Below, in pieces: positions 18,114 through 33,953 of a DNA stretch of 39,116 nucleotides. Within the stretch, counting starts at the first letter, position 1; every line of letters begins with the position of its first letter. Source of the DNA: Bacillota bacterium (GTDB lineage Bacteria; Bacillota; Bacilli; Alicyclobacillales; SLC66); NCBI GenBank assembly GCA_021846165.1, contig JAJZCL010000005.1, positions 1 through 39,116 of the forward strand, written 5' to 3'. The notes below the pieces were generated by a model. That model was not told the DNA's origin. It saw only the letters and a list, made by a program, of their open reading frames with translations, and did not search any database. Made by a program: the position numbers and the translations under genes.

Positions 18114-18116
18114 GCT

Positions 18117-18152
18117 AAAAAACCTCCGTACGGTTTCGTACGGAGGTTTTTT
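18117..18152. terminator. Bidirectional terminator between rnpB and fabH
   Basis: AAAAAACCTCCGTACG-gttt-CGTACGGAGGTTTTTT. Confidence 0.9.
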
Positions 18153-18159
18153 AGTGATG

Positions 18160-25389: not shown

Positions 25390-25962
25390 TCAATAGTAGG
25401 TTTTGGCGTTTTCCTCGTCGATCACGATTTGCAGGATCTCGCGAAAGCGTTGCGAGTGTACCACTTCCCGTTCGCGTAGGAAAATTAGTCCGTCTTGCAA
25501 GTCTCGATCATCGGTGATGTCGATCAGGTGCTGGTAAACGGCTCGCGCTTTCTCCTCCGCATCAATGTCCTCGTAAAGATTGGCGATGGGGTCGCCTTTA
25601 GCGGCAATGTACTTGGCACTGAACGGCACGCCGTTGCCGTCGACGTAAAACAGGTCATGACCGTGGTCGACGTAGTGGGCGCCGAGTCCGTGCGCGGTCA
25701 TTTCATCCGCTGTCGCGTTGTGCAGAAGGTGGTGTACCATCGAGGCGATGATCTCAAGGTGCGCGAGTTCCTCTGTCGCAATATCTGTGAGCGTGGCGAT
25801 GGCATGGCGGTTTTTCATGCCGTAACGCTGGTTCATGTAGCGCAATGCGGCGGCCAACTCTCCATCGGGGCCGCCGTATTGGGTGATCAGGAATTTGGCC
25901 ATGCGGATATCCTTTTTGCCAACGCGCACCGGGTACTGTAGCCTTTTTTCATAAAACCACAC
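25390..25962 (-). CDS. cotJC: Manganese catalase / spore coat protein CotJC family
   Basis: MWFYEKRLQYPVRV...GGPDGELAAALRYMNQRY...ATEELAHLEIIASMVHHLL...GDPIANLYEDIDAEEKAR. Confidence 0.93.
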   Translation of the reverse strand: MWFYEKRLQYPVRVGKKDIRMAKFLITQYGGPDGELAAALRYMNQRYGMKNRHAIATLTDIATEELAHLEIIASMVHHLLHNATADEMTAHGLGAHYVDHGHDLFYVDGNGVPFSAKYIAAKGDPIANLYEDIDAEEKARAVYQHLIDITDDRDLQDGLIFLREREVVHSQRFREILQIVIDEENAKTYY

Positions 25963-31239: not shown

Positions 31240-32262
31240 ATGATGGAGATTGTTAGGGCGCGTGGAAAGAAAACTGAATTACGGCGTCTGGCGTCAAGGG
31301 AAGGCGAGGACAGTGTGTTTCCGCTTGTTTGGTATGCGGTCATGTGGTCGAAAGAGCTGGTGCAACATCCGATTAAGCGCACGGTGGCGGGGTTGGATTT
31401 GATATTGTTTCGTGATCAGAGCGGGATTGTCCGTTGCGTCGATGCGTGTTGTCCCCATCGTGGTGCGGATCTTTCTTTAGGGCGAATTGAAGGCGGAACG
31501 CTGCGCTGTGCATACCACGGATGGGCGTTTGATGGAGAGGGACACTGCGAGCGTATTCCCGCCCACCCTGCTCGCTCGATTCCGGAGTTTGCTAATCTAC
31601 TATCATATCCTATCCAGGAAATAGCAGGACTGGTGTGGGTATACCCCCAAGCGAATGGCGATGTGCAGCCATCATCATTAGAAGTGTTCCCTGAACTTAC
31701 GGATGTGCGTTATGTGTTGGCGCCGTATGATGCCAAGTGGCAGGCTCATTTCACGAGAACAGTGGAAAGTGTTCTGGATGTGGCGCACCTTGCGTTTGTT
31801 CATAGGAAGACCATCGGCAAACGTTTGAACCCCGAAATCCGCTCGTTAGACTTTGAAGTGAAGGGGCGGGATCGGATCCAAATTAAAAACGGCGGCGGCA
31901 TCCTGGATTACATTTTTCCGCAGCAGTGGCTACTGCGACCTGATCAAGGCGGTAAGCAAGGCTTCATCAACTATGTGACCTTCACCCCGGTCAACTCCCA
32001 CAAGACCATGATTTTCGGTTATGCTGGGAGAACGTTTCTGCGTCGGGTGCCGTTTGTCACGTCAATGTTTTCCCATTACAGCTTAAAAATCCTGGAAGAA
32101 GATCGGAAGGTGGTGGAAAGTCAGCGCCCACGTCCAATTCCAAAGTCGATGCAAATGGAAGCCCATGTGCCTGCTGATGGGCCGCAAGTGCGTTTTCGGC
32201 AGCGGTGGTATCAGTTTTTATTATCGGATGAGGAAAAGATCGTGTTGCGCAGTCGCTCCTAA
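31240..32262 (+). CDS. Rieske [2Fe-2S] non-heme iron oxygenase-type protein
   Basis: CPHRGADLSLGRIEGGTLRCAYHGWAFDGEG Rieske cluster ligands; DVAHLAFVH catalytic-iron motif. Confidence 0.92.
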   Translation: MMEIVRARGKKTELRRLASREGEDSVFPLVWYAVMWSKELVQHPIKRTVAGLDLILFRDQSGIVRCVDACCPHRGADLSLGRIEGGTLRCAYHGWAFDGEGHCERIPAHPARSIPEFANLLSYPIQEIAGLVWVYPQANGDVQPSSLEVFPELTDVRYVLAPYDAKWQAHFTRTVESVLDVAHLAFVHRKTIGKRLNPEIRSLDFEVKGRDRIQIKNGGGILDYIFPQQWLLRPDQGGKQGFINYVTFTPVNSHKTMIFGYAGRTFLRRVPFVTSMFSHYSLKILEEDRKVVESQRPRPIPKSMQMEAHVPADGPQVRFRQRWYQFLLSDEEKIVLRSRS

Positions 32263-33437
32263 GTATGGTGCAAGCCTTCGGTTTGACCGTTCTCTTCCAA
32301 ACTTCGCTCGAACAAGCGAGTCGACGCAAGCAGTGCCGCAAAACCAATCACAAGAATGGCGGCGGCGATCCAGAACGGAACCTGCATGCCGAACAAAGGC
32401 CCCATAAAACCGCTGAAAATCGGCGCGATTGCTGCGCCTGCCCAGCGCAGGAAGTTGTAAGTGCCAGACGAAATAGAGCGGGAAAACGGTGAGATTTCCA
32501 TGGCTAGCGTTGTGAACAAGGCGTTGGCGATGCCGCAAAAAAATCCCGATACCACGATGATCCACAACAACGCCATGCCGTGTACAAGCGCTGCGGCGAC
32601 GAACACAGCAATCAATCCCAGCAGATTGACTTGCAATAGTCGCACGGGACCAAAGATTGGCCGTAGCCAATTCACTACGAATACAGAGGAAATGCCGACA
32701 AGAATGCCCCAAGCAAAGTACGTGAATCCAAGTTCTATACTGCTCAGCCCTTTCAGTGTCAGCGGCGAATAAGCAAGAATGGTGAAAAAGGCGTAACTGT
32801 ACGCAAGACCGATCAGTGCGTTGGTCAGGACGGCCGGGTGGCGCATGGCGCGGAACAAGTCTTGCGCGGATCGGGGCGCTTCTCGATTGGTTTCCTTGAC
32901 TGTAAAAAAGGTAAATATCAGGGCGATCAGCATGAGCATCGAGGTGCCGTAAAACGGAAACCGCCACGACAGATTCCCCAAAAATCCGCCGATCAAGGGT
33001 CCTGAGGCGATGCCAAGACCAAGCGCCGCTTCATACAGCGTGATGGCCGATGCCATACCGCCGCTGGAAGCGCCGACAATGATCGAAAGCGCGGTCGAGG
33101 TGAAGAACGCATTGCCGAGTCCCCATCCTGCTCTAACGGTGGCGAGCATCGCGATGTTGGGAGATCGACCCGACAAAAAGGCGAACACGACGACAAGGGT
33201 CAGTCCAATCAGCATCACCTTGCGTCCACCGAGTCTTGTTGCCATCACACCCGAGATCAGCATGGTTACGGCCATCACTGCAATATAGCTGGTGAACAGC
33301 CACTCAACTTCAAAAGGGGTGGCGCCCATCGCCTTGCCAATCAGCGGCAGCAGAGGGTCAACAACGCCAATCCCCATGAAAGCAATCAGGGTGGCGAATG
33401 CGGTGGCAATGACCGCAGGTGGAAATCGTTTGAACAT
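32259..33437 (-). CDS. MFS transporter
   Basis: 12-TM-like hydrophobicity, MATRLGGRKVMLIG loop; ATG 33437 after AGGAGA RBS. Confidence 0.92.
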   Translation of the reverse strand: MFKRFPPAVIATAFATLIAFMGIGVVDPLLPLIGKAMGATPFEVEWLFTSYIAVMAVTMLISGVMATRLGGRKVMLIGLTLVVVFAFLSGRSPNIAMLATVRAGWGLGNAFFTSTALSIIVGASSGGMASAITLYEAALGLGIASGPLIGGFLGNLSWRFPFYGTSMLMLIALIFTFFTVKETNREAPRSAQDLFRAMRHPAVLTNALIGLAYSYAFFTILAYSPLTLKGLSSIELGFTYFAWGILVGISSVFVVNWLRPIFGPVRLLQVNLLGLIAVFVAAALVHGMALLWIIVVSGFFCGIANALFTTLAMEISPFSRSISSGTYNFLRWAGAAIAPIFSGFMGPLFGMQVPFWIAAAILVIGFAALLASTRLFERSLEENGQTEGLHHT

Positions 33438-33470
33438 GAGAAACTCTCCTTGGTCATTTCGGTTGCCGAA

Positions 33471-33499
33471 ATTATACATGATCATTCTCGCCATTTCAA
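33471..33499 (-). promoter_or_regulatory. Predicted sigma-A promoter of the MFS gene
   Basis: Minus strand TTGAAA (33499-33494), 17-nt spacer, TATAAT (33476-33471). Confidence 0.75.
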
Positions 33500-33527
33500 T
33501 TTGGAGTTGAAATGGCGAGAATGATCA
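33479..33527. repeat. Perfect 21-bp inverted repeat with 7-nt loop
   Basis: TGATCATTCTCGCCATTTCAA (33479-33499) / tttggag / TTGAAATGGCGAGAATGATCA (33507-33527). Confidence 0.97.
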
Positions 33528-33528
33528 A

Positions 33529-33783
33529 TTATGCGTATTCCCACGGCCACGGCTGTTCGACGTAGCCAGCGCGGTTAGCGACGCGCTCGTCGCCAAATCC
33601 AGTGAGCGGTCCGTACTGTTGTTCATAAGTTTTGCGCAAGGTGCGAAGTCGCTTGTTCAGCGTCGCGTAGTCTTGCAGTGCATCTGGATCACCAGGGTGG
33701 GAATCCAGATAAAGCTGAATTTCCAATAAGGCAAACGACGTCGCCTGCAGATCGATCATGAGATTGTTGTCGTACGCGATCAT
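33529..33783 (-). CDS. cotJB: Spore coat protein CotJB
   Basis: LQATSFALLEIQLYLDSHPGDPDALQDYATLNKRLRTLRKTYEQQYGPLT...PWPWEYA. Confidence 0.9.
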   Translation of the reverse strand: MIAYDNNLMIDLQATSFALLEIQLYLDSHPGDPDALQDYATLNKRLRTLRKTYEQQYGPLTGFGDERVANRAGYVEQPWPWEYA

Positions 33784-33953
33784 TTCGCCTCGTCCCCCCT
33801 GCTAGCGTGGGAATGTACACGCTTGCGATAATGATCGTCCAACCACAAAAACAGAGTGCCTTGGGACAAAGCCGTGGAAAGGTCGTATTTTTTCATTTCC
33901 GCGTACGGGTAGGGGGATGCGCCGCCGGGAAAACTCAAGGATTCTTCCGCCAT
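33780..33953 (-). CDS. cotJA: CotJA-like spore coat associated protein (57 aa)
   Basis: Hand-translated MAEESLSFPGGASPYPYAEMKKYDLSTALSQGTLFLWLDDHYRKRVHSHASRGDEAK; ALxxGTLFxxL pattern; ATGA overlap with cotJB; RBS aaaggag; missing from the ORF track. Confidence 0.75.
   Translation of the reverse strand: MAEESLSFPGGASPYPYAEMKKYDLSTALSQGTLFLWLDDHYRKRVHSHASRGDEAK

Follow-up and report, generated by a model that had tools for sequence, protein, structure and literature searches.

A perfect 21-bp inverted repeat downstream of cotJB is a probable 3′-end hairpin that overlaps the predicted −35 region of an MFS transporter gene

Introduction

A U-less ('I-shaped') hairpin terminator, TtsaD, has been described in the alr-groEL1 operon of Mycobacterium tuberculosis, and the evidence on whether U-less hairpins terminate transcription in mycobacteria is contradictory (PMC5335608). 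The hairpin analyzed here, which follows cotJB in a genome of the Bacillota, is closest to this class of terminators. In both loci, a stable stem is located just past a stop codon between genes of the same direction, a proper U-tract is missing, and promoters lie further on. The cotJB hairpin differs from TtsaD in its longer perfect stem, its host, a member of the Bacillota, its weakly U-rich tail, and the position of the next promoter, which is inside the 3′ arm. A stable hairpin past the stop without a U-trail, the hallmark of U-less terminators, is thus present at cotJB, but the weakly U-rich tail makes the assignment borderline. Like canonical intrinsic (Rho-independent) terminators, the hairpin is stable and sits after the last gene of its operon, where the two sister species have canonical ones; unlike them, it has no contiguous U-tract and its stem is unusually long. 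As the U-tract is absent, we do not class it as a canonical terminator. A search of the literature on terminator–promoter overlaps, made with few fixed phrases in a limited set of papers, returned nothing directly comparable; this outcome should not be read as a sign of novelty.

In TetR- or MarR-type arrangements, an operator can overlap the −10 element or the start site of an MFS efflux gene. The MFS gene downstream of cotJB is similar in that a short palindrome, TTTCG-N5-CGAAA, is found at or just downstream of the −10 element in 19 of 22 orthologues. It differs in that no regulator gene is evident next to it, and the comparison applies to this short palindrome and not to the 21-bp repeat after cotJB.

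Results

Architecture of the cotJB–MFS gap

The window, i.e. the whole stretch of DNA that was analyzed, comprises 39,116 nucleotides, and the features of the cotJB–MFS region within it are listed in Table 1. Direct reading and a repeat search both located an inverted repeat with 21 of 21 positions paired, which is separated by a single base from the cotJB stop codon (TAA, 33531–33529, minus strand), exactly as the first-pass annotation of this DNA had described. On the forward strand, the arms read TGATCATTCTCGCCATTTCAA (33479–33499) and TTGAAATGGCGAGAATGATCA (33507–33527) and are separated by the loop TTTGGAG. In the minus-strand direction, in which both flanking genes are read, the order is the cotJB stop, one base, TGATCATTCTCGCCATTTCAA-CTCCAAA-TTGAAATGGCGAGAATGATCA, TGTATAATTTCGGCAACCGAAATGACCAAGGAGAGTTTCTC, and the ATG of the MFS gene. 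The repeat finder described the same interval either as 21 perfect pairs or as 26 pairs at 92%. The span of 33471–33527 that had been assigned to the repeat is correct at its upper end, but the repeat itself starts at 33479, and position 33471 takes in the −10 hexamer. The gap between cotJB and the MFS gene is 91 nt. The MFS start was placed at 33437 and not at an in-frame upstream ATG at 33494, because orthologues of 89–90% identity align from residue 1.

Table 1. Coordinates of the features in the cotJB–MFS region of the window
Feature	Position	Strand	Basis or remark
MFS transporter, 392 aa, start ATG 33437	32259..33437	-	Pfam MFS_1, 1.3e-43
MFS ribosome binding site, AAGGAGAG	33444..33451	-	Sequence; kept in both sisters
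17-bp palindrome ATTTCGG-CAA-CCGAAAT, core TTTCG-N5-CGAAA at 33457-33471	33456..33472	-	Probable MFS operator
Predicted -10 hexamer, TATAAT	33471..33476	-	Kept in both sister species
Hairpin 3′ arm (minus reading), TTGAAATGGCGAGAATGATCA	33479..33499	-	Contains -35 and 15 of 17 spacer bases
Predicted -35 hexamer, TTGAAA	33494..33499	-	11/12 promoter, 17-nt spacer
Hairpin loop, 7 nt, CTCCAAA on minus strand	33500..33506	-	Sequence, RNA fold
Hairpin 5′ arm (minus reading), TGATCATTCTCGCCATTTCAA	33507..33527	-	Begins 1 base past cotJB stop
cotJB	33529..33783	-	Pfam CotJB, 2.9e-24
57-aa ORF overlapping cotJB start, cotJA by position, without Pfam hit	33780..33953	-	Inferred from operon order

The repeat is far beyond chance expectation. 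Over 1.70 Mb of the genome to which the window belongs (129 contigs in a fragmented assembly, 83% complete; the pieces searched overlap slightly), we counted 42 perfect inverted repeats whose arms reach 12 bp or more and whose loops span 3–14 nt. An order-2 Markov control gave 1, and the arms of the repeat past cotJB are the longest of all 42. The RNA of the hairpin region folds with −47.1 kcal/mol (shuffled mean −22.7, z −7.5), and a search of RNA families with the hairpin returned only meaningless microRNA-like hairpin matches far under the gathering scores. The 10 nt that follow the hairpin (TGTATAATTT) contain six T residues in interrupted order, and a terminator scan made no call on the hairpin. 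The earlier statement that no T-run follows, so that this is not a standard terminator, thus holds for an unbroken run but overlooks that the tail is weakly U-rich.

The predicted MFS promoter, TTGAAA-17-TATAAT on the minus strand, matches the consensus at 11 of 12 positions with a spacing within the 16–18 nt expected of Sigma-A promoters, and a transcript start is predicted near 33464, about 7 nt past the −10 hexamer. Promoters scoring at least 11/12 were found in 14 of 897 upstream regions, compared with 0.2 in shuffles (∼70-fold enrichment), so the match is unlikely to have arisen by chance and, like the repeat, is a real sequence feature. This is in agreement with the first-pass annotation, which had placed a strong consensus promoter across the repeat, with one arm supplying the −35 hexamer and nearly all of the spacer. 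Among 419 same-direction gaps of this genome, only one other has a −35 hexamer within the 3′ arm of a hairpin, and the stem there is 10 bp. As such an overlap is this rare here (2 of 419), it may be a coincidence; it may also have been selected.

Location of perfect hairpins across the genome

Most of these 42 perfect repeats are found at gene ends: 29 are located at most 60 nt downstream of a stop codon, while the stretches of 80 nt past stops make up ∼7% of the genome (gene calls came from a simple script, so single distances to stops are approximate). Many of these 29 are found between convergent genes and have A/T-tracts, i.e. they are terminators, and by a loose criterion a U-rich stretch is within reach in 22 of them. 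The U-poor minority includes hairpins at L178 6233, L201 13676, and L172 18584. With its tail, the cotJB hairpin is borderline between the two groups. The second-longest perfect repeat of the window (18 bp, 18115–18154, CTAAAAAACCTCCGTACG-gttt-CGTACGGAGGTTTTTTAG) has A/T-tracts inside its arms and looks like a bidirectional terminator.

The same slot in relatives

Orthologues of the MFS gene were compared in 22 genomes across the order (63–90% identity). The two sister species, G001 and G002, are the closest (89–90% identity of the MFS protein) and share the cotJB–MFS gene order of the window. In both, cotJB is followed by an ordinary terminator, in which a stem precedes TTTTTTT or GTTTTTA and the sequence is unrelated to the 21-bp repeat; the repeat itself is absent from their cotJB–MFS slot. 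In the more distant G004, a perfect 19-bp hairpin (ACAACAGTGACCTGATGAG-GCAT-CTCATCAGGTCACTGTTGT) of unrelated sequence and without a T-run starts one base past the cotJB stop. The MFS gene and cotJB are convergent in G004, and the hairpin therefore lies between two gene ends where no MFS promoter is possible. A long hairpin, here with a U-rich tail, also follows cotJB in G013. What recurs, as judged from these sequences, is a hairpin at the end of cotJB, and neither its sequence nor a tie to the MFS promoter. Conservation of the hairpin only as a cotJB 3′ end, together with the lack of a transcript start near 33464, had been named beforehand as an outcome that would speak against a role at the promoter, and hairpins of unrelated sequence do recur at this end in relatives, which goes part of the way toward that outcome.

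The exact 21-bp hairpin occurs in one genome only among those compared, and inspection of the other 21 orthologues did not reveal the repeat upstream of the MFS gene in any of them. A perfect repeat with arms of 12 bp or more precedes the MFS gene in 2 of the 22 genomes, i.e. in the window and in G009, where the repeat has an unrelated sequence and lies 137 nt upstream. In G009 and G015 (L011/L012), about 140–190 nt upstream of the MFS gene, a 22-bp repeat that is perfect in G009 and has one mismatch in the stem in G015 adjoins an apparent remnant of a converging oxidoreductase gene. We rejected it as the same element: in G009 it lies 82 nt past cotJB and beyond the apparent remnant, its sequence is unrelated, and it is imperfect in G015.

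Between the window and its sisters, TATAAT and everything downstream of it align, with strong similarity over TATAATTTCG-N5-CGAAATGA..AAGGAGA. Origin of the repeat in situ from the sisters' promoter region was considered and rejected; a multiple alignment hinted at weak similarity, but alignment scores compared with shuffles gave no convincing homology to that region (full length, P = 0.32 for G001 and 0.04 for G002; neither arm significant).

A homologue of cotJC (66% identity to a relative's cotJC) is located at 25423–25962, 7.5 kb from cotJAB. In most relatives outside this group, cotJC directly follows cotJB, as judged by eye. In G004 and G008, an inverted MFS gene lies between cotJB and cotJC. 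As cotJC follows cotJB elsewhere and is 7.5 kb away here, the end of cotJAB is a new gene end in this lineage, and this, we infer, may account for the presence of a different terminator in each genome.

A short palindrome at the MFS start site

The 19 orthologues with TTTCG-N5-CGAAA match it at 9 or more of the 10 core positions within 200 nt upstream of the MFS gene; at the same threshold, each of 300 random palindromes of this form was found in at most two orthologues. More distant MFS orthologues (Sulfobacillus and archaeal bins) lack the motif. In the window, the motif covers the end of the −10 hexamer together with the expected start site; in several relatives it is found, by eye, ∼15 nt past a likely extended −10 element (TGnTATnAT). 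This conservation and placement suggest that TTTCG-N5-CGAAA is probably the target of a repressor and a better candidate for the MFS operator than the 21-bp repeat. The only other intergenic exact copy in this genome (L139:9712–9726) is located between divergent genes and is a possible second target of the same regulator.

Discussion

We consider it likely, although well short of certain, that the 21-bp repeat is a 3′-end hairpin of cotJAB, acting as a U-poor terminator or a 3′ protector, and that the MFS promoter draws its −35 region from the 3′ arm of this hairpin. As RNA polymerase leaves cotJB, the RNA would fold at once into a 21-bp stem of about −33 kcal/mol, followed by the weakly U-rich tail UGUAUAAUUU. 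The stem would end transcription partly or fully and/or shield the 3′ end from nucleases, by which sporulation transcripts would be kept out of the MFS gene, which lies 91 nt further on. With so little room between the genes, the second arm would also provide the −35 hexamer and most of the spacer of a vegetative-type MFS promoter. Control of the MFS gene would be exerted through the separate TTTCG-N5-CGAAA over the end of the −10 hexamer and the start site, probably by a repressor. Against this reading, we counted the interrupted tail with 6 T in 10, the silence of the terminator scan, the U-tract that 22 of the 29 gene-end hairpins do have by a loose criterion, the occurrence of the exact hairpin in a single genome, and the rarity of a −35 hexamer within a 3′ arm.

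An unlikely yet credible alternative is that the hairpin acts in stability and processing only, in which case cotJAB RNA would continue into the MFS gene and be trimmed back to the stem by nucleases, with no termination. The high stability of the stem, its position near the stop codon, the missing proper U-tract, and the similar U-poor hairpins after other genes (e.g. L178, L163, and L172) are consistent with this. However, ordinary terminators occupy the same slot in the sisters, which points to a need for termination at this place, and the tail is weakly U-rich.

We regard it as improbable that the repeat is a long DNA operator, to both arms of which a dedicated regulator would bind and block the MFS promoter, as the first-pass annotation had proposed. 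A protein bound there would indeed block the promoter, since one arm contains the −35 hexamer and most of the spacer. However, the repeat is missing upstream of the 21 other orthologues, including the two at 89–90% identity, and what is conserved instead is a different, 15-bp palindrome in 19 of 22; moreover, the arm is unique in the genome, and no evident regulator gene lies beside the MFS gene. Of the further proposal that the palindrome is both a cotJAB 3′ hairpin and an operator, the 3′ hairpin is the better supported half. Transcription through the hairpin could, speculatively, disturb the MFS promoter. That the palindrome is a two-way switch, in which cotJAB transcription during sporulation or cruciform extrusion occludes the MFS −35 hexamer so that one element ends one transcript and gates the next, seems to us highly improbable.

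The arrival of a small REP- or MITE-like mobile palindrome in the cotJB–MFS gap, which had also been suggested, would account for the perfect arms, the absence of the repeat in the sisters, and the end of similarity to the sisters near the edge of the repeat. However, the arm occurs at a single locus of its own genome (83% complete) when up to three mismatches are allowed, the next best match having three mismatches and covering one arm only; viral contigs searched with the arm and plasmids searched with the region gave no match, and no target-site duplication was seen by eye at the ends of the repeat. We therefore give this explanation very little weight. It is scarcely credible that supercoiling extrudes the repeat as a cruciform, removing the −35 hexamer and switching the MFS promoter off; the long perfect arms, short spacer, and promoter overlap would permit it, but the argument is one of anatomy, and relatives have no such repeat. 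Equally remote is a fold-back join at the repeat in a fragmented metagenome bin (129 contigs, 83% complete), as the flanking genes are syntenic in both sisters, the sequence beyond each arm aligns with theirs, and the same assembly has other long perfect hairpins at expected gene ends.

The arrangement of a 3′-end hairpin and a promoter at cotJB is of an ordinary kind, in a compact and elegant instance. It indicates that, in a compact genome, a single stretch of DNA can form the 3′ hairpin of one gene while providing the −35 region of its neighbor, and that even a conspicuous palindrome at a promoter is not necessarily the operator of that promoter. As a by-product, the comparison brought out TTTCG-N5-CGAAA, previously unassigned within this analysis, as a conserved operator-like motif upstream of the MFS transporter gene in Alicyclobacillus and related acidophile bins.
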